From positions 1 through 33,969 of the forward strand of contig JANXYG010000124.1 in assembly GCA_025350245.1 (NCBI GenBank): a stretch of DNA of 33,969 bases. The letters are read 5' to 3'. Under the pieces are notes generated by a model. It worked only from the letters and a program-made list of their open reading frames with translations. It was not told the origin of the DNA and did not search any database. The translations under genes and the position numbers were made by a program. Below, one piece after another: positions 2,197 to 20,058 of the stretch (its first letter is position 1; each line of letters starts with the position of its first letter). This DNA comes from Betaproteobacteria bacterium (lineage in GTDB: Bacteria > Pseudomonadota > Gammaproteobacteria > Burkholderiales > Ga0077523).

Positions 2197-3480
2197 ATGA
2201 TCCAGGCAAGGCTGTTCGCGCTCGCCACTGCGGGTCTGTGGTTGTTTGCCGCGCTCGCCTCGGCCGCGGAAACGGCGCCGGGAGAGCGCGCCCTGGGCTT
2301 TACCGAGGCGCTCGGGCTGCTGCGGGCGCGTAATCGTGATCTGCTCCAGGCACAGCGGTCGATCGACTTCGCCCAGGCCGACAACCTGTCGGCCCGGGCG
2401 CGACCCAATCCGAACCTCACGGTGACCACGGCTGCGATCAATCCGCGCGTTGTCACCAATGCCGATCCGCAATATCGCAAGATCGACGCGATCGCCCAGC
2501 TGTCCCAACTGATCGAACGCGGCGACAAGCGCGAACTGCGCATCGAAGCCACCCGCCTGGCGATCGATGCTTCACGCGGCGACTACGCCGATGCCTTGCG
2601 CCAGCTCACGATCGCGCTCGCGGCGTCGTACTACGATCTCCTGCTGACCCAAGACCGGGTGCGCATCGCCGACGAAACCAGTGCGCTGTTCAGGCGCACC
2701 GTTGCCGCGGCTGAATTGCGGCTCAAGGCGGGCGACATCGCACCTTCCGACCTCTCGCGCATCAAGGTCGACCAGCTGCGCGCCGACAACGATCGTCGCC
2801 AGACGATGGCCGATCGCGAGCGGGCGCGCGTGGCGCTGGCCTACCTGGTGGGTCTCGATGCCGAGGCCGCGGGGCTGAGCGCGACCGATCCCTGGCCGGC
2901 GGCGGAGGCGCCCGATCGGGGCGCGGCTGCCGCCGTGATCGAAGCGCGGGCCGACGTGCGCGCCGCGGCGCTGCGCGTTCAGGTCGCTGCAAAGGCGCGC
3001 GATCTCGCCCGCGCACTGCGCTCGCGCGACGTGACACTCTCGGTGCAATACGAGCACTTTCCCTCGCAGGTGCAGAACAACACCGTCGGTATCGGCATCA
3101 GCGTGCCGCTGTTTCTCGGTTACAACTTCGAGGGCGAGATCCGGCGCACCGAGGTCGGATTGCAGGCCGCGACCGAAGCGCTGGGACGCACGAGAGCGTT
3201 GGCGCTGGCCGAAATCAACCGTGCCTGGAGTGATCTTGCCTCGGCGAGCGAGCGGGTGCAGCGCTACGACAGCGGCCTGCTTGGAGAGGCGCAGCGGGCC
3301 GCGGAGGCGGCGGAGTTCGCCTATCGCAACGGCGCGCTCGGCGTGATCGATCTGCTCGATGCACGCCGGGTCTTCACAGCCACTCGCAACGATGCTGCGA
3401 GTGCCCGGTCGGATCTCGCGCGCGCTCTGGTGGCGTGGCGCGGCGCCAACAGCGCCTACACCCCGGCCTCTCCGCCATGA
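2197..3480 (+). CDS. TolC/CzcC-type outer-membrane efflux factor
   Basis: Outer-membrane channel subunit (427 residues) of a tripartite RND efflux system. The N-terminus MIQARLFALATAGLWLFAAL ending near ASA-AET is a signal peptide. Two outer-membrane-efflux repeats follow: the first contains the NPNLTVTTAA strand and a long coiled helix with LAASYYDLLLTQDRVRIADE, the second contains LSVQYEHFPSQVQNNTVGIGISVPLF and the C-terminal helix ending GVIDLLDARRVF. The length fits CzcC/CusC relatives. ATG 2197 is preferred over an in-frame TTG at 2173 because it sits about 10 nt after GGGAG and starts directly at the signal peptide. The stop overlaps the adaptor start by ATGA, so the two genes are translationally coupled. 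Confidence 0.9.
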   Translation: MIQARLFALATAGLWLFAALASAAETAPGERALGFTEALGLLRARNRDLLQAQRSIDFAQADNLSARARPNPNLTVTTAAINPRVVTNADPQYRKIDAIAQLSQLIERGDKRELRIEATRLAIDASRGDYADALRQLTIALAASYYDLLLTQDRVRIADETSALFRRTVAAAELRLKAGDIAPSDLSRIKVDQLRADNDRRQTMADRERARVALAYLVGLDAEAAGLSATDPWPAAEAPDRGAAAAVIEARADVRAAALRVQVAAKARDLARALRSRDVTLSVQYEHFPSQVQNNTVGIGISVPLFLGYNFEGEIRRTEVGLQAATEALGRTRALALAEINRAWSDLASASERVQRYDSGLLGEAQRAAEAAEFAYRNGALGVIDLLDARRVFTATRNDAASARSDLARALVAWRGANSAYTPASPP

Positions 3481-4640
3481 AGCGTCGCAGTCTTGTCGTC
3501 CTTGCCGTTGTCGCCATTGTCCTGATCGCGGCTGCGGGCTGGTTCTATCCCCGTCTGGACCTCGGCAAGAGCCGGCAGCAGCCGCGGCCCGCGCCGTCGG
3601 CACCGGCCGCCATGGGCGGCAGCGTGCTGCGCTTCGAGAGCAGTGCGCCGCAACTCGCCTATCTCAAGGTCCTGCCGGCCGAAGCATCGCCCGAGCCGCT
3701 GATCGAAGCCCTGTCCGGCCGCGTGGCCTACGACGAGAATCGCACCTCGCGCGTGAGCGCGCCGATCGCCGGGCGTGTCACCCGCATCGTGGCGCAACTG
3801 GGCGAGCGGGTCGCCAGCGGGGCGCCACTGGCCTTTGTCGATGCGCCCGATTATGCGCAGGCAACCGCCGACCTCAAGCGCGACGAGATCGACGTCAAGC
3901 AGCAGCGTGCGGTCTACGAGCGCGCGAAGCTGTTGTTCGAGGGCGAGGTGATGTCGCGCAAGGAGTTCGAGGTGGCCGAGACCGGTCTGCGCGAATCCGA
4001 GGTCGAACTCGGGCGCGCCAAGCGGCGCCTGGAGGCCCTTGGCCAGAGTGGCGGCGCGACCCCGACCGGCGATCTGGTGCTGCGCGCGTCGGTTGCCGGC
4101 GTGATCACCGAACGCAATATCAACCCAGGCACACAGGTGGGCCCCGATGCGACCAAGCCGCTCTTCGTGATCTCCGATCCGGAAAAGCTCTGGATCGTCG
4201 TCGACCTGCCGGAACAGCATCTGGGTGTGCTCGAGGCCGGACAGGTTGCCACGGTCGAGGTCGATGCCTATCCGGGCAAGTCGTTTCGCGCCACGGTGGT
4301 GAATGTCGGTGACGTGCTCGATCCGGCCACGCGCCGGGTGCAGGTGCGCTGCGCCGTCGATAACAGCGAGCGCCTGCTCAAGCCCGAGATGTATGCGCGG
4401 GTGACGCCGCTCGCCTCCAAGAGCGTGCCCAGGGCCCGCATCCCCAATACCGCGCTGGTTTCGGTCGGGATCAGCAACTATGTGTTCGTGGAACGCGAAC
4501 CGGGCGTGCTCGAACGGCGCAAGGTGGTGCTATCGGTGCAGGGGCGCGATCAGTCCTGGGTCCGCGACGGCATCGCGCCGGGCGATCGGGTGGTCGTCAG
4601 CGGCGCGCTGCTCCTGAACGCCGAGCTGCAGGGCAACTAG
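3477..4640 (+). CDS. RND efflux periplasmic adaptor, CzcB-like
   Basis: Membrane-fusion protein of 387 residues joining the inner-membrane pump to the outer-membrane factor. Residues 5-22 form an N-terminal membrane anchor (VVLAVVAIVLIAAAGWF). Next come the barrel-sandwich/lipoyl half motif (SAPIAGRVTRIVAQLGERVASG), an alpha-hairpin with FEGEVMSRKEFEVAETGLRE, the second lipoyl half (LRASVAGVITERNINPGTQV) and beta-barrel segments (LWIVVDLPEQHLGVLEAGQ, GDVLDPATRRVQVRC). The end GDRVVVSGALLLNAEL is typical of the CzcB/CusB group. No histidine-rich N-terminus or extra metal-binding cysteines were seen. ATG 3477 overlaps the upstream stop (ATGA). Unusually, a 327-nt repeat array separates it from its pump gene. 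Confidence 0.9.
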   Translation: MKRRSLVVLAVVAIVLIAAAGWFYPRLDLGKSRQQPRPAPSAPAAMGGSVLRFESSAPQLAYLKVLPAEASPEPLIEALSGRVAYDENRTSRVSAPIAGRVTRIVAQLGERVASGAPLAFVDAPDYAQATADLKRDEIDVKQQRAVYERAKLLFEGEVMSRKEFEVAETGLRESEVELGRAKRRLEALGQSGGATPTGDLVLRASVAGVITERNINPGTQVGPDATKPLFVISDPEKLWIVVDLPEQHLGVLEAGQVATVEVDAYPGKSFRATVVNVGDVLDPATRRVQVRCAVDNSERLLKPEMYARVTPLASKSVPRARIPNTALVSVGISNYVFVEREPGVLERRKVVLSVQGRDQSWVRDGIAPGDRVVVSGALLLNAELQGN

Positions 4641-4641
4641 G

Positions 4642-4971
4642 ATGAAACACCCACCCCCAGGCTGCGCTGCTCTGCGCCTTCCCCCTCAAGGGGGCGCCCC
4701 GTTCCTCGGGGGACCCTGCGGAGATGGACGCCCACCCCCAGGCTGCGCTGCGCTACGCCTTCCCCCTCGAGGGGGCGCCCCGTTCCTCGGGGGACCCTGC
4801 GGAGATGGACGCCCACCCCCAGGCTGCGCTGCGCTACGCCTTCCCCCTCGAGGGGGCGCCCCGTTCCTCGGGGGACCCTGCGGACGGGGCCTCTTCGCTG
4901 GTGGGCCCTCCTTTCTGCACCCCCAGGCTGCGCTGCGCTTCGCCTGTCTCGGCCGCCGTCGGCTGCGATGA
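4642..4971 (+). CDS. Possible leader ORF across repeat array, coupled to pump gene
   Basis: An open frame of 109 codons starts at ATG 4642, directly after the adaptor stop at 4640, and ends in TGA 4969-4971, overlapping the pump's ATG at 4968 as ATGA. It is almost wholly made of the 81-bp repeat, so it encodes a 27-residue period rich in Pro, Gly, Cys and Arg (PPPGCAALRLPPRGGAPF). No protein family is recognised and GC-rich sequence often stays open by chance. Its possible value is as a re-initiation device, since no Shine-Dalgarno sequence is seen before the pump start. Low confidence that a stable product exists. Confidence 0.2.
   Translation: MKHPPPGCAALRLPPQGGAPFLGGPCGDGRPPPGCAALRLPPRGGAPFLGGPCGDGRPPPGCAALRLPPRGGAPFLGGPCGRGLFAGGPSFLHPQAALRFACLGRRRLR
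4651..4945 (+). repeat. 81-bp tandem array of palindromic repeat (3 copies plus fragment)
   Basis: Units begin at 4651, 4732 and 4813 with an exact 81-nt period, each opening with CCACCCCCAGGCTGCGCTGC and containing the near-perfect palindrome CCCCCTCGAGGGGG (first copy CCCCCTCAAGGGGG), then CGTTCCTCGGGGGACCCTGCGG. The third unit diverges after about 4885 and a fragment of the unit's start reappears at 4918-4945. The start block CCCCCAGG can pair with CCTCGGGGG later in the unit, enclosing the inner hairpin, so each unit can fold as a nested stem. The same element occurs singly at two other loci in this window. Confidence 0.9.
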
Positions 4972-7900
4972 TCGAGAAGCTGGTCACCTTCGCGCTGCAA
5001 CAGCGCGTGTTCGTGGTTGCGGCCGCCGTGATCCTCGCCATCTCGGGGTGGTTCGCCTGGACCAATCTGCCGATCGAGGCTTTTCCCGACGTGCAGGACG
5101 TGCAGGTGCTGGTCGTGACCCAGTATGTGGGCCAGGCCCCCGAGGAGGTCGAGCGGGCGATATCGCTGCCGATCGAGCGCGAGATGAATGGGGTCGCGCG
5201 GCTCACCGCAATCCGCTCGGTGTCGATCTTCGGTCTGTCCATCGTCACCATCACCTTCGCCGACAAGACCGACGACTACTTCGCTCGTCAGCAGGTGCTG
5301 GAGAAGCTGCAGAGCGTGACGCTGCCCGCGGGCGTGACGCCGACCATCGCCCCGCTCACCAATTCCGTGGGCGAGATCTACCGCTATGTTGTTCAGGCGC
5401 CGCCCGACATGCCGATCACCGAGGTGCGGGCGTTGCAGGACTTCGTGATTCGGCCGGCGTTGCGGCGCGTGGTCGGCGTGGTCGACGTGGTGAGTTTCGG
5501 GGGTGTGGTCAAGGAGTATCAGGTCCGCGCCAATCCACAGCTGCTGCGCAAGTTCGACGTGACCCTCGACCAGGTGTCCGCGGCGCTCGGCGCGGGCAAC
5601 GGCAACGCCGGCGGCGGCGTGATCCGGCGCGGCGACGAAGGGCTGGTGGTGCGCACGCTCGGCCTGTTCCGGAGCGTCGGCGATATCGGCCGGGTCGTGG
5701 TCGCGGCCCGCAACGGCAGCCCGATCTTCGTGTCCGATGTCGCCACCGTGGCCATCGGCGCCCGCAACCGCTCGGGTATCGTCGGCTTCAACGACCAGGA
5801 CTCGGTGGTGCAGGGCATCGTCCAGATGACCAAGGGGTACAACGCGACCAAGGCGGTCGAGGCGCTCAAGCGCGAGCTGGCCGTGCTGGCCGTCAAGCTG
5901 CCACCGGGCGTGAAACTGGTGCCCTACTACGACCGCACCGAACTGGTGAAGCACACGGTTCACACCGTGACCGAGAATCTCGCGGTCGGCGCGGTGCTGG
6001 TGGTGAGCATCCTGCTCATCTTCCTGCGTGACTGGCGCGCCACCGTCATCGTGGCGTCGATCATCCCGCTCGCGCTGTTCTTCGCCTTCCTGATGATGGA
6101 CTTGCGCGGCATCTCGGCCAACCTCATCTCGCTCGGTTCGGTCGACTTCGGCATCATCATCGACAGCGCGGTGGTGATGGTGGAGGCGCTGATGGTCAAG
6201 CTGGCGCTGGCCAAGGAAGACCCGTCGGTGCAGTTCACGGCCGTTGGCTGGCGCATCCGGGCGCTGCGCGAAACGGCGCTCAGCATGGGCCCACCGATCC
6301 TGTTCTCGAAGGCCATCATCATTCTCGCCTTCCTGCCGATCTTCACTTTCGAGCGCGTCGAGGGAAAGATCTTCTCGCCCATGGCGTGGACCCTGTCGTT
6401 CGCACTCGGCGGCGCGATCCTGCTCACGCTCACGCTGGTGCCGTCGCTGCTGTCATTTGCGGTACGTGCGGCCGACCTGTCGGAGCGCCACAGCAACTGG
6501 ATGGAGGCTTTGCGCAACGGTTACCGGCGTTCACTGCTGTGGGCGCGCGGACGCCGCTGGGCCATCACCGGACTGTCGCTGCTCGCGCTGGTGCTCACCG
6601 GCGCCGCGGCAACGCGGCTCGGCAGCGAGTTCCTGCCCAAGCTGAACGAAGGCAACATCTGGCTCACCGTCACGTTGCCGCCGTCCACCGCTATCGACAA
6701 GAGCAAGGAGGTCGAGCGCAACATCCGCACCATCCTGCGCAGCTATCCCGAGGTGCACAACGTGATCGGCCAGGTCGGTCGCCCGGATGACGGCACCGAT
6801 CCCAAGGGATCGAACAACATCGAGATCATGGCCGACCTGAACCCGAAGGACGTCTGGCGATTTCCCGACAAGGAGGCCCTGATCGCCGACATGGGGCGGC
6901 GCATCCGCGCGATGCCGGGCGTGCCGACCAACTTCTCGCAGGTGATCGAAGACAACGTCGAGGAGGCGCTGTCGGGCGTCAAGGGCGAGATCGCGGTCAA
7001 GATCTTCGGCGCCGATCTCGACATCCTCGAAGACAAGGGCGAGCAGGTGGCGACCATTCTCTCGGGAATTCGCGGCAGTACCGACGTCGCGGCGATCAAG
7101 GTCGGCGGACAGACCGAACTCGACGTCGTGCTCGACCGTGAGCGTATCGCGCGCTATGGCCTCAACGTCGCCGATATCAACACGACCGTGCAGACCGCCA
7201 TGTCGGGCACGGCGGTGAGCACGTTCTATGAACCGGGTCGCAACTTCGACGTGACGCTGCGCTTCGACGCGCCGTTCCGCCAAGCCGCCGACGATGTCGC
7301 CGAGTTGCCGATCACGTTGCCCGGCGGCAGCGCCACCATTCCTCTGGGCGAGGTCGCGCGCATCGAGGTGCGCCAGGGCGCCGCGCGCATCTCGCGCGAG
7401 GCGGGCGGACGCAACGTGTCGGTCAAGGCCAACCTGCTCGGCCGCGACCAGGGCAGTTTCGTCGCCGAAGCGCAGAGCAGGGTTGCCGAGCAGGTGCACC
7501 TGCCGCCCGGCTACACCATGACCTGGGGGGGGCAGTTCGAGAACCAGCAGCGCGCCATCGAGCGCCTCAAGGTAATCATCCCGTTGTCGCTGCTGATGAT
7601 CTTCGTGCTGCTGTTCTGGGCGTTCAAGTCGATGGGCAAGGCGCTGCTGGTGCTGGGCATGATTCCGTTCACGCTCATCGGCGGCATCGCCGGCCTCGCG
7701 TTCGCCGGCCTGCACCTGTCGATCTCGGCGGCGGTGGGCTTCATCGCCGTGGCCGGCATCTCGGTGCAGAACGGCGTGATCATGGTCGAGCGCTTCATGG
7801 AATCGATCCGCAACGGCGCGAGCGTGGACGACGCCGTACTCGAAGGCGCGGTCGAGCGTCTGCGCCCGATCGTGATGACGGCGTTGATGGCCGGGCTCGG

Positions 7901-8069
7901 CTTGTTGCCCGCCGCGCTGTCGCACGGCATCGGCTCCGAGACCCAGCGCCCGTTCGCGGTGGTGATCGTTGGCGGTATCGTGTCGGCCACCTTGTTCACC
8001 CTGCTGCTGCTGCCGCTGCTGTTCCCGTGTGTGACCGCCGATCGGGCGTCGGGGCAGCCGGTGAGTTGA
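4968..8069 (+). CDS. Heavy-metal efflux RND pump, CzcA-like (HME family)
   Basis: Inner-membrane proton-driven pump of 1033 residues, the normal size for CzcA/CusA. The start MIEKLVTFALQQRVFVVAAAVILAISGWF gives the first helix, followed by the porter domain beginning NLPIEAFPDVQDVQV. The fourth transmembrane helix carries DFGIIIDSAVVMVE (D393, D399, E406), the proton-relay signature of divalent-cation HME pumps rather than the Cu/Ag form. The second half repeats the fold (SEFLPKLNEGNIWLTVTLP, then ISAAVGFIAVAGISVQNGVIMVERF) and ends in a helix bundle. Most relatives have DG and EN where this protein has DS and EA. ATG 4968 is secure by homology but has no visible ribosome-binding site and overlaps the repeat-derived frame upstream. 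Zn/Co/Cd/Ni efflux is the likely role; the exact metal is unknown. Confidence 0.92.
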   Translation: MIEKLVTFALQQRVFVVAAAVILAISGWFAWTNLPIEAFPDVQDVQVLVVTQYVGQAPEEVERAISLPIEREMNGVARLTAIRSVSIFGLSIVTITFADKTDDYFARQQVLEKLQSVTLPAGVTPTIAPLTNSVGEIYRYVVQAPPDMPITEVRALQDFVIRPALRRVVGVVDVVSFGGVVKEYQVRANPQLLRKFDVTLDQVSAALGAGNGNAGGGVIRRGDEGLVVRTLGLFRSVGDIGRVVVAARNGSPIFVSDVATVAIGARNRSGIVGFNDQDSVVQGIVQMTKGYNATKAVEALKRELAVLAVKLPPGVKLVPYYDRTELVKHTVHTVTENLAVGAVLVVSILLIFLRDWRATVIVASIIPLALFFAFLMMDLRGISANLISLGSVDFGIIIDSAVVMVEALMVKLALAKEDPSVQFTAVGWRIRALRETALSMGPPILFSKAIIILAFLPIFTFERVEGKIFSPMAWTLSFALGGAILLTLTLVPSLLSFAVRAADLSERHSNWMEALRNGYRRSLLWARGRRWAITGLSLLALVLTGAAATRLGSEFLPKLNEGNIWLTVTLPPSTAIDKSKEVERNIRTILRSYPEVHNVIGQVGRPDDGTDPKGSNNIEIMADLNPKDVWRFPDKEALIADMGRRIRAMPGVPTNFSQVIEDNVEEALSGVKGEIAVKIFGADLDILEDKGEQVATILSGIRGSTDVAAIKVGGQTELDVVLDRERIARYGLNVADINTTVQTAMSGTAVSTFYEPGRNFDVTLRFDAPFRQAADDVAELPITLPGGSATIPLGEVARIEVRQGAARISREAGGRNVSVKANLLGRDQGSFVAEAQSRVAEQVHLPPGYTMTWGGQFENQQRAIERLKVIIPLSLLMIFVLLFWAFKSMGKALLVLGMIPFTLIGGIAGLAFAGLHLSISAAVGFIAVAGISVQNGVIMVERFMESIRNGASVDDAVLEGAVERLRPIVMTALMAGLGLLPAALSHGIGSETQRPFAVVIVGGIVSATLFTLLLLPLLFPCVTADRASGQPVS

Positions 8070-8327: not shown

Positions 8328-9224
8328 ATGAAAAGCAGGCTTCCGATTGCGTTGTTGACGGTTGCGCTCTGCGCGGCTCCCGCTTTTGCGGCAGGGCAGC
8401 GCGGCACCAATGGCGGCCCGCCTCGTCTCGAATCGAGTTCGGTCATCGTGGTCGACCAGCAGGAAGGCACCGCCCTCTACGGCAAGAACACCGGCGCGGT
8501 CACCCCGATCGCCTCGATCACCAAGCTGATGACGGCGGTCGTCGTTCTCGATGCGCAGCTCCCGCTCGACGAGCCGCTCGCTGTGAGCAACGACGATCTC
8601 GATTTCGTCAAGGGCACCCACTCGCGCCTCAGTGTCGGCACCGTGCTCACCCGAGGCGAAATGCTGAAGCTGGCCCTGATGGCCTCCGAAAACCGCGCCG
8701 CGTCCACGCTCGGCCGGCACTATCCGGGCGGTATCGGCGCGTTTGTCGAGGCGATGAATCGCAAGGCTCGCGATCTCGGCATGCGCGACACCCACTTCGT
8801 CGATTCCACCGGCCTGAACCCGCTCAACGTATCCACCGCGCAAGATCTCGTGAAACTGGTCCAGGCCGGCTACACGCATGACCTGATCCGCGCCTTCACC
8901 ACCTCCGAATCGCACATGGTCGAAGTCGAAGGCCGGATCCGACCGCGTCTGGTGGCGTTCAACAACTCGAATCGCCTGGTACGCAGCAGCGACTGGGACA
9001 TCGGCCTGTCGAAGACGGGCTACATCTCCGAAGCCGGGCGTTGCCTGGTCATGCAGGCACGCATTGCCACCAAGCCGGTGATCATCGTGCTGCTCGACTC
9101 GTGGGGCAAGGTCGCGCGCATCGCCGACGCCAACCGCATCAAGCACTGGATCGAGGGCGAAGTGCGGCGGGCTGACGCCAAAGCCCTTTCCGGCGCCCGC
9201 CCCAAGACGCTGTCGGCGCTATAG
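8328..9224 (+). CDS. pbpG: D-alanyl-D-alanine endopeptidase (PBP7-like)
   Basis: Periplasmic penicillin-binding enzyme (298 residues) that cleaves D-Ala-meso-DAP cross-links in peptidoglycan. A signal peptide MKSRLPIALLTVALCAAPAFA is clear. The three catalytic motifs of the S11 family are present and well spaced: S63-I-T-K66, S120-E-N and K229-T-G. DSTGLNPLNVSTAQDL and the short C-terminus without a DacA-type beta domain favour PbpG over the carboxypeptidases DacA/DacC. It appears monocistronic, starting 258 nt after the pump gene, and its stop is followed after only 4 nt by the dispersed repeat element. Expression control is not evident beyond an inverted repeat upstream. Confidence 0.92.
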   Translation: MKSRLPIALLTVALCAAPAFAAGQRGTNGGPPRLESSSVIVVDQQEGTALYGKNTGAVTPIASITKLMTAVVVLDAQLPLDEPLAVSNDDLDFVKGTHSRLSVGTVLTRGEMLKLALMASENRAASTLGRHYPGGIGAFVEAMNRKARDLGMRDTHFVDSTGLNPLNVSTAQDLVKLVQAGYTHDLIRAFTTSESHMVEVEGRIRPRLVAFNNSNRLVRSSDWDIGLSKTGYISEAGRCLVMQARIATKPVIIVLLDSWGKVARIADANRIKHWIEGEVRRADAKALSGARPKTLSAL

Positions 9225-9228
9225 ACGT

Positions 9229-9390
9229 CCACCCCCAGGCTGCGCTGCGCTTCGCCTTCCCCCTCGAGGGGGCGCGGCGTCCTCGAGGGACCCTGTGGGC
9301 GCCGCCCCTTCGTTGCCGATGTGCCCTTCGCCTTTCCCCTCGAGGGGGCGCAGCATGCCTCGGGCGATCCTGCGGATGCTGCCCCTCCGC
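9229..9390 (+). repeat. Dispersed palindromic repeat, one full and one partial copy
   Basis: A full unit starts at 9229 with CCACCCCCAGGCTGCGCTGC, contains CCCCCTCGAGGGGG and continues CGTCCTCGAGGGACCCTGTG to about 9314. A second, partial unit at about 9326-9390 keeps CCCCTCGAGGGGGCG and CCTCGGGCGATCCTGCGG. It occupies nearly all the space between the pbpG stop (9224) and the convergent IclR gene stop (9415), so it may serve as a bidirectional terminator or RNA-stabilising structure there. Confidence 0.88.
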
Positions 9391-18574: not shown

Positions 18575-19930
18575 ATGATGCGACCACCTGCCCGTTGGCT
18601 GACCTGCCTTGCCGGTGCCGCGCTCGCCGCGCCGGCGCTCGCCTGGGCCGCGGGCGATGCCGCGCATCACGCCGGATTGTTGCTATGGATCGGTGCCATC
18701 CTGATCGCGGCCCGCGTCGGTTCGCTGGTGCAACGTTTCGGCCAACCGGCGGTTCTCGGTGAACTCGCGGCTGGCATCGTCCTGGGAAATCTTGCGCTGG
18801 TCGGCTGGACCGGCGCCGCGGTCGTCGCAACCGATCCGGTGCTCGTGTTTCTCGCCGAACTGGGCGTGGTGGTGCTGCTGTTCCAGATCGGGCTCGAGTC
18901 GAATGTGCAGCAGATGCTGGCGGTCGGCGCGCGGGCGATGGCGGTTGCCGTGGTCGGTGTCGTCGTGCCGTTCGTGCTCGGCACGCTGGTGGTCGGTCCG
19001 TGGCTGCTGCCGGGGTTGGGCGCCAACGCCTACCTGTTCATCGGCGCCACGCTGACGGCGACCTCGGTCGGGATCACCGGCCGGGTGTTCCGCGATCTCG
19101 GTCAGTTGCAGCGACCGGAGGCGCGCATCGTGCTCGGTGCCGCGGTGATCGACGACGTGCTCGGGCTGGTGATTCTCGCGGTCGTTTCCGCGATCGCCAC
19201 CACCGGCTCCGTGGCAACCGGCGCGGTGGCCATTATCGTATTCGAGGCGCTGTTGTTCCTGGTCGGTGCCATCGTCATCGGCCGCACCGTCGCGCCGCCG
19301 CTGTCACGGCTGTTCGCGCGCATCCATGCCGGCGCCGGCATGAAGCTCGCGCTGGCGCTGAGCACCTGCATGCTGTTCGCGTGGGTCGCCGCGCAGATCG
19401 GCCTGGCGCCGATCGTCGGCGCGTTTGCCGCTGGTCTCGTGCTCGACGATGTCGTCTTCAGCGACTACGACCCGCCGTCGTTCGAGCGCGATGTACGCGC
19501 GGCATTGGCCGGCGCCGACCGCGATACCCACGGCCGGGTGGAGGCCGTGCTCGATATCCATCGCAACCGGCATCTCGAGGATCTGGTCGCGCCGGTCGGC
19601 CACTTCCTGGTGCCGTTCTTTTTCGTGGTCACCGGCATGCAGGTCAAGCTCGATCTGCTGGCCGATCCGCGTGCGTTGATGGTGGCGCTCGCGCTCACCG
19701 TCGCCGCGGTGGCGGGCAAGATCGTCGCCGGCGTCGTGGCCGGCCCGGTGGATCGCTGGCTGGTTGGCTGGGGCATGGTGCCGCGCGGCGAGGTCGGGCT
19801 GATCTTCGCCGCGACCGGGATGGCGCTCGGGGTCGTGTCGGCCGCCGTATTCGCGGTGATCGTGATCACCGTGCTGGCGACGACGCTCATCACGCCACCG
19901 GTCCTGGCGAGGCTGCTGCGCCGGCGCTGA
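18575..19930 (+). CDS. CPA2-family cation/proton antiporter
   Basis: Inner-membrane antiporter of 451 residues with about 12-13 helices. Conserved CPA2 elements are RFGQPAVLGELAAGIVLGN in the early helices, the broken-helix motif GATLTATSVGITGRVFRDLG, and the ion-site pair in GAAVIDDVLGLVILAVVS, where two adjacent aspartates are typical of electrogenic Na+/H+ exchangers. QIGLAPIVGAFAAGLVLDD and VPRGEVGLIFAATGMALG complete the core. There is no C-terminal TrkA-N/RCK domain, unlike KefB/KefC, so glutathione gating is unlikely. ATG 18575 or 18578 may be used; the upstream extension to 18482 falls in the divergent promoter region. The stop is followed after 8 nt by a dispersed repeat element. Confidence 0.88.
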   Translation: MMRPPARWLTCLAGAALAAPALAWAAGDAAHHAGLLLWIGAILIAARVGSLVQRFGQPAVLGELAAGIVLGNLALVGWTGAAVVATDPVLVFLAELGVVVLLFQIGLESNVQQMLAVGARAMAVAVVGVVVPFVLGTLVVGPWLLPGLGANAYLFIGATLTATSVGITGRVFRDLGQLQRPEARIVLGAAVIDDVLGLVILAVVSAIATTGSVATGAVAIIVFEALLFLVGAIVIGRTVAPPLSRLFARIHAGAGMKLALALSTCMLFAWVAAQIGLAPIVGAFAAGLVLDDVVFSDYDPPSFERDVRAALAGADRDTHGRVEAVLDIHRNRHLEDLVAPVGHFLVPFFFVVTGMQVKLDLLADPRALMVALALTVAAVAGKIVAGVVAGPVDRWLVGWGMVPRGEVGLIFAATGMALGVVSAAVFAVIVITVLATTLITPPVLARLLRRR

Positions 19931-19938
19931 GAGAAAGC

Positions 19939-20030
19939 CCACCCCCAGGCTGCGCTGCGCTCCGCCTTCCCCCTCAAGGGGGCGCAGCGTCCTCGGGGGA
20001 CCCTGTGGGCGCTGCCCCTTCGCTTCGGAG
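19939..20030 (+). repeat. Dispersed palindromic repeat, single copy
   Basis: A third locus of the element: CCACCCCCAGGCTGCGCTGC at its start, CCCCCTCAAGGGGG in the middle, then CGTCCTCGGGGGACCCTGTG and a tail GGGCGCTGCCCCTTCGCTTC that also matches the copy after pbpG. It begins 8 nt after the antiporter stop. Position and orientation relative to the upstream gene match the other two loci. Confidence 0.9.
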
Positions 20031-20058
20031 GGCGCTTCGTGCCGCGCCTGCCTTACAG

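Follow-up and report, generated by a model that had tools for sequence, protein, structure and literature searches.

A stop-anchored, structured repeat between the adaptor and pump genes of a CzcCBA operon

A structured repeat anchored to stop codons occupies almost the whole of the 327-nt gap between the adaptor and pump genes of a CzcCBA operon, an identity that we hold to be close to certain. Our preferred explanation, adopted with moderate confidence, is that the tandem array found there is an enlarged copy of a dispersed REP-like repeat, acting as a hairpin boundary at the adaptor message's 3′ end. Since the array is one copy of a structured repeat that is scattered genome-wide and usually sits just after stops, such an RNA hairpin boundary is more likely than a purpose-built coupling gene. 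The window, i.e., the whole 33,969-nt stretch of DNA analyzed here, comes from a 3.99-Mb draft genome (G000; 156 contigs, 96% complete).

The tandem array and its setting

The operon is encoded on the + strand by an outer-membrane channel gene of the OEP/TolC type (2197–3480; gene call, Pfam OEP at 2.7e-38), a CzcB-like periplasmic adaptor gene (3477–4640; gene call, HlyD_D23 at 3.2e-41 and RND_mfp at 2.8e-43), and an RND pump gene of the CusA/CzcA family (4968–8069; TIGR00914 at 2.2e-295, above cut-off). The ATG of the adaptor gene overlaps the stop of the channel gene, and its own TAG stop lies at 4638–4640. An 81-bp tandem array between adaptor and pump, reported by a sequence-only reading of this DNA, is real: TRF placed 2.9 copies with a period of 81 and 98% matches at 4650–4884 (+), the sole strong array found, and by sequence reading these resolve into units at 4650–4730, 4731–4811, and 4812–4884. 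Units 2 and 3 read as identical as far as 4884, and unit 1 deviates at few positions. An extra repeat core belonging to a partial fourth copy follows at 4918–4938 (+), 104 nt past the core of unit 3. On the other side, the stretch adjoining the adaptor stop (4641–4649, +) is probably the repeat's own 5′ end and the source of an ATG at 4642, because ATGAAAC stands at this place in 8 of 103 stop-anchored copies, the window copy included.

Unit 3 carries two hairpins on the + strand: hairpin 1 is the perfect palindrome CCCCCTCGAGGGGG at 4843–4856, and hairpin 2 (4859–4889) is built from arms at 4859–4864 and 4884–4889, of a type that covaries across copies. Units 1 and 2 are without the right arm of hairpin 2. 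Elsewhere in the genome, short-period clusters (about 81–84 nt) likewise have upstream units without this arm and only the last unit complete, 13 sampled units directly adjoin a further unit downstream, and the copies read in long-period clusters (104–108 nt) keep the arm.

Two further copies were found in the window, both on the + strand and with approximate ends: one 3′ of a D-Ala-D-Ala carboxypeptidase-like gene (stop at 9224; copy at 9225–9376), the other 3′ of a Na+/H+ exchanger-like gene (stop at 19930; copy at 19931–20050). Neither terminator-like nor promoter-like sites were detected at 4600–5000 of the window, and a scan of the same interval for a hairpin followed by a T-run, as in intrinsic terminators, returned 0 sites. 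Rfam yielded for 4300–5300 a single chance-level match, well under the gathering score and on the opposite strand of the adaptor gene, and the plasmid and phage collections held nothing matching 4641–4900.

A dispersed repeat placed just behind stop codons

The array had been taken as special to this operon; it is instead one of 139 repeat clusters among the genome stretches sampled. Copies are scattered across many contigs of the draft, where the core 20-mer has 302 sites at ≤2 mismatches and its backward control 0, and BLAST with the array as query returned at least 48 matches (40 of 304 candidates scored). A profile search of 80 genome stretches plus the window (1,526,465 nt, 1259 called genes) gave 202 matches, which formed 89 single, 38 double, 11 triple, and 1 quadruple clusters; these were built from same-strand matches, with mixed-strand clusters outside the count. 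The repeat is mostly extragenic, with 3 of the 139 clusters lying within gene calls; these, and 12 more at contig edges, were left out of the orientation count (15/139).

Among the 124 clusters retained, the upstream gene was in sense orientation for 112 (P = 2e-21), the others being antisense on both sides (8) or divergent (4). Downstream of these 112, the next gene was sense in 75 and antisense in 37. Co-directional gaps thus hold 75/112 copies behind a sense gene, to be set against 75% of gene ends generally, and convergent gaps are slightly over-represented (37/112 vs 25% of gene ends, P = 0.06), so that the repeat may also have an end-of-transcript role. Anchoring to the stop is tight: a core was located in 109 of the 112 sense-upstream clusters (none was found in 3), and it lay ≤16 nt from the stop codon in 98 of them and 6–16 nt away in 92, with a median distance of 11 nt. 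A first, smaller sample had given 72 of 80 cores within 16 nt, compared to 30.2 expected from uniform placement in the same gaps. Usage of the stop codons themselves is not special (TGA at 52/77 copies vs 667/967 for all genes). The usual account of REP-like repeats is of extragenic palindromes whose preferences are less strict.

Within clusters, cores follow each other head to tail at spacings of 79–108 nt. The sequence-only reading had seen in the 81-nt period, a multiple of three, a means of keeping the reading frame; across the repeat family frame-keeping is no rule, since spacings fall 22/15/9 into classes 0/1/2 modulo 3 (P = 0.06) and copies often differ in length by one base. One locus of the same genome (L153, near 1151 on contig C42) holds an inverted pair of copies that forms one large palindrome visible from both strands. 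Five contigs (C15, C45, C65, C82, and C123) start within about 120 nt of a repeat copy, so the assembly may break at the repeat, which would then be undercounted. When the 1.53 Mb sample was compared with itself by BLAST to look for a larger parent element, it returned 3 matches of ≥300 nt (two on C65, one on C72). The 15-letter core was absent from openly licensed PMC papers, and no title among those listed describes the repeat.

Structure was assessed across copies. RNAalifold returned no structure for 94 copies, and pairing was therefore counted directly: the arms of hairpin 2 covary between copies, with an average of 5.97 contiguous pairs over 76 copies as opposed to a mean of 4.07 and a maximum of 4.58 over 500 shuffles of the arm partners, the register being free for both the observed and the shuffled arms. 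Among the arm types with six pairs are ones containing CAGCG/CGCTG, CCCCG/CGGGG, CAACAT/ATGTTG, and CCGGC/GCCGG, in a listing that leans towards structure in that the register was picked per copy by pairing. For the hairpins proposed earlier for this gap, support therefore comes from the covarying arms and not from the whole-array fold, which was not significantly better than shuffles (z = −1.5, equaled by 7 of 100 shuffles).

The many extragenic copies (the 302 core sites) and the conserved stem-loop indicated by arm covariation are features of REP/BIME elements; likewise, the REPs and BIMEs associated with RAYT transposases are, in the passages of PMC2817692 consulted, extragenic stem-loop repeats with >100 copies that are partly clustered. 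The genome encodes two genes of the REP-associated transposase type (PF01797), at C99:31154 and C34:30175. Unlike a RAYT gene of the REP/BIME type, neither lies between two inverted copies: the first has no repeat core within about 1.5 kb, and for the second the one match at up to 3 mismatches is inside the transposase match itself, leaving no copy beside the gene. The counted clusters, built from same-strand matches, are direct rather than alternating, and at least one inverted pair exists (at L153). We rejected a RAYT as resident mobilizer on the grounds that no copy adjoins either gene, with the proviso that a 96% complete genome may be missing one. An integron attC array, considered in view of the placement after stops, would have clustered cassettes with an integrase and R-box; the copies here are spread over many contigs.

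The open frame and the junction in relatives

An open frame of 109 codons runs from the adaptor stop to the pump start (4642–4971, +), as had been read from the sequence: its ATG at 4642 is 1 nt past the adaptor TAG, and its TGA at 4969–4971 falls within the ATGA of the pump start. This openness is unremarkable and weak evidence, because the 81-nt unit is stop-free in every + frame, the spacer is fully open in two of its three frames, and the frame stays open in 284 of 1000 dinucleotide shuffles, in line with the caveat of chance openness attached to the frame from the outset. Nor is the frame coding-like: its coding score is −8.6 per 100 nt, whereas called genes have a median of +7.1, the adaptor scores +7.8, and the opening 330 nt of the pump score +10.0. 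It matched no Pfam or NCBIfam family, and these two results speak against a coupled small gene, for which a coding-like frame or a known family would be expected. The pump ATG does lack a Shine–Dalgarno (SD) sequence, as claimed (longest match 0), and the pump gene has no in-frame ATG, GTG, or TTG upstream of 4968; by eye, an SD is likewise missing before the pump in same-genus orthologues without this repeat.

A survey of the junction produced 102 rows with both genes placed, several being one genome under two identifiers. The adaptor–pump gap was ≤60 nt in 93 of these rows and >60 nt in 9, which represent 7 distinct loci. Within the genus, the spacers measured 327 nt in the window, 335 in G010, 245 in G009, 124 in G005, 29 in G004, 27 in G003, and 22 in G002. 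In same-genus relatives this gap has another repeat or none at all. Judging from sequence comparison, unrelated repeats have entered the junction on more than one occasion, since the gap of G010 and G009 holds a different dispersed repeat with core CCCCCATCCCGACCTTCCCCC, found at up to 2 mismatches at 282 sites in G010 and 405 in G009. The G009 repeat also lies near gene 3′ ends, more loosely (11 of 27 sense copies ≤16 nt from the stop) and with 27 sense vs 10 antisense copies, 6 of 43 clusters having been dropped at contig edges. Two more distant relatives, L147 (157 nt) and L093 (131 nt), have other inverted-repeat-like spacers between adaptor and pump.

We then asked in how many relatives a relay frame, i.e., one crossing from the adaptor stop to the pump start, is present. 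Seven same-genus loci with both ends were available from 12 genus genomes including the window; G001 and G011, with the pump cut at a contig end, were left out, as were G006, G007, and G008, in which the best match was 38–41% identical and was not accepted as an orthologue. In 6 of these 7 loci a frame begins ≤4 nt from the adaptor stop and ends at the pump start, vs 1 of 14 frame-shifted controls with the spacer shortened by 1 or 2 nt, in a test whose idea came from the window itself, whose criteria were fixed after the relatives' spacers had been read, and in which G009 and G010 share one insertion. The six frames start with ATG in five cases and TTG in G005, and some of the spacers are mutually unrelated. 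A shuffle null gave P = 6.6e-7, for a null that destroys start codons, counts G009 and G010 separately, and includes the window. The comparison with relatives that the sequence-only reading had called for hence returned the frame at most loci of the genus, and failed to do so in G003 (27 nt) and, outside the genus, in L093, L147 having a relay frame. Overall, the relay pattern at this operon is strong but small-sample, and translational coupling would seem to gain some support from the genus comparison, because 6/7 loci are bridged compared to 1/14 shifted ones.

Genome-wide, bridging was evaluated for same-strand gaps of 60–400 nt, with 62 of the 75 sense/sense clusters within the gap and distance limits and with start codons that are approximate, the gene calls coming from a simple in-house caller. 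Repeat gaps were bridged in 22/62 cases vs 10 and 7 in the shifted frames (P = 0.0026, or 0.0044 excluding the window), and gaps without the repeat in 54/300 vs 35 and 19 (P = 0.00025). The bridged rate was higher in repeat gaps (Fisher P = 0.0034) and the true-frame share was not different (Fisher P = 0.58); alongside this higher rate, open frames are more numerous in repeat gaps and start codons close to the stop more frequent (56/62 repeat gaps vs 206/300 gaps without repeat). By length, repeat gaps were bridged in 9/17 cases at 60–150 nt (shifted, 3 and 2) and 11/32 at 150–250 nt (5 and 5), with no in-frame excess at 250–800 nt, the class of the window (2/19 vs 2 and 0). Gaps of 30–60 nt without the repeat likewise displayed no excess (21/124; shifted, 22 and 8), and all same-strand gaps in 20 stretches of G009, repeats included, were bridged in 13/98 cases vs 7 and 5 (P = 0.04). 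SDs were not weaker in bridged pairs (P = 0.26). For the relay proposed earlier, the genome-wide count therefore reproduces an in-frame excess at repeat gaps, and shows it to be shared by gaps without the repeat and absent from the longest class; the lack of coding character and of an SD effect also speak against the relay. Coupling, small genes that escaped calling, or a bias in the calling of starts could each account for a mild general in-frame tendency of this type.

A proposed hairpin boundary and its alternatives

We propose that the repeat expanded in this lineage and settled, sense-oriented, about 11 nt after stop codons. At the czc junction, this would place mRNA hairpins at the adaptor message's 3′ end, directly behind the ribosome as it terminates, where they would obstruct 3′ exonucleases and loosen the translational coupling of pump to adaptor, leaving more adaptor than pump much as the malE–malF structure does. 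By analogy, an excess of adaptor over pump is the likeliest effect here, and we give it an even chance. The 109-codon frame would then be mainly a by-product of the GC-rich, stop-free repeat, perhaps tolerated because a few ribosomes still reach the start of the pump through it. The frequency of relay frames (22/62 repeat gaps; 6/7 loci in the genus) counts against the boundary reading, as translation may cross some gaps.

The probabilities attached to the alternatives need not sum to one, since these are not all mutually exclusive. Because mobility does not preclude an effect, this holds for the reading of the repeat as a selfish, non-autonomous element, put behind stops by a mobilizer or by survival bias and merely tolerated in the czc operon, which we consider unlikely. 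It is supported by the lineage-specificity of the repeat, whose exact 20-mer is present in 2 of the 399 genomes sampled from the order (143 sites in G000 and 2 in G178), with no exact site in 11 genus relatives (0 to 3 sites each at 2 mismatches). The identity of units 2 and 3 up to 4884 points to duplication, and different repeat-like spacers occupy this gap in G009/G010 and, by reading, in L147. Anchoring at 6–16 nt (92/109) and compensatory arm changes instead imply a constraint on position and structure, and no mobilizer was found, neither PF01797 gene having a copy beside it. That the repeat partially terminates or attenuates transcription at gene ends is very unlikely: its sense orientation behind stops and the slight convergent excess (P = 0.06) would fit, as opposed to the position of the array inside an operon, the lack of a T-run terminator-like site at 4600–5000, and a co-directional share of 75/112 vs 75% of gene ends in general. 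An assembly artefact affecting the array or its copy number is harder still to credit, for a draft of 156 contigs, five of them beginning within about 120 nt of a copy, must be weighed against single, double, and triple clusters that recur at many loci (89, 38, and 11, plus one quadruple) and against the position of the array, which is surrounded by a coherent operon within a contig of 34 kb.

In the remaining alternative, ribosomes would re-initiate at the ATG 1 nt past the adaptor stop, cross the 109 codons, and start the pump from the ATGA, a course of events that we judge improbable. It draws on the genus comparison (6/7 loci, partly with unrelated spacers, vs 1/14; shuffle P = 6.6e-7), on the bridging of repeat gaps (22/62 vs 10 and 7, P = 0.0026; vs 54/300 without repeat, Fisher P = 0.0034), and on a pump without an SD match. 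Gaps without the repeat display an equal in-frame excess, however (54/300 vs 35 and 19; share, Fisher P = 0.58), repeat gaps of 250–800 nt display none (2/19 vs 2 and 0), the frame is not coding-like, bridged pairs have no SD effect, G003 and L093 do without the frame, and G009 and G010 amount to one shared insertion. Translational coupling is moreover optimal below 25 nt according to the excerpt of PMC7538156. Like the ATGA-overlap coupling treated there and in PMC12548453, the czc junction has a stop/start overlap where the pump begins and a start codon adjoining the adaptor stop; here, though, ribosomes would have to be relayed past strong hairpins over 109 codons that are not coding-like. 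A broader version, in which the repeat is targeted to stops or survives only there, insertions into operons persist preferentially if the start codon of the repeat, together with its stop-free body, makes up a relay frame ending at the next gene's start and taking ribosomes across the hairpins, and unrelated repeats of sister species reached the same czcB–czcA solution, we find similarly doubtful.

The hairpin-boundary reading has precedents of its own. Structure just 3′ of a stop correlates negatively with coupling in the portion of PMC12548453 consulted. In E. coli, 260 of 496 REPs lie within 15 nt of stop codons, or 446 of 4,072 as counted by RepRanger, in figures quoted from Liang, Rudd and Deutscher (2015) in the consulted part of PMC12306157. 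The same excerpt portrays these REPs as we find the present repeat, i.e., as many dispersed extragenic hairpins just behind stops, within operons and at their ends; here, however, 98/109 cores lie ≤16 nt from the stop, nearly all copies are sense, and clusters are mostly head-to-tail with cores 79–108 nt apart. By analogy, the repeat would work like the translation-linked REPs of E. coli, whose within-15-nt placement it shares (98/109 cores ≤16 nt away, median 11). In the E. coli malEFG operon, the malE mRNA is stabilized by structure between malE and malF, according to passages of PMC5927463; in both cases stable RNA structure separates two cistrons of an operon for a transporter, where unequal subunit dosage makes sense, the effect on stability being demonstrated for malE–malF and inferred for the czc array. 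With its near-fixed distance and orientation to stops, this family from an uncultured lineage amounts to a natural experiment on how operon subunit ratios are set by hairpins lying behind ribosomes at termination, and a stop-anchored repeat raises the question of how repeats find stop codons. Recurrent relay frames at one operon junction bear on re-initiation across long structured spacers, which is open to a reporter test.

Partial relatives of the repeat were detected elsewhere in the order. BLAST of one copy matched 3 of the 399 genomes at E 1e-6 (G000, G107, and G178, with 2 candidates scored per genome), the matches in G107 and G178 covering the left half only; a pattern search found 1 site in G107 and 4 in G178. 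In G178, as read from the sequence without gene calls, one left half (L259) lies 11 nt past a TAG ending a 1329-nt open stretch and another (L255) 18 nt past a TGA ending a 360-nt open stretch. That these related left halves are fused to a different right half with GACCGGCGGAGCCGGATC suggests modular relatives of the repeat elsewhere in the order.
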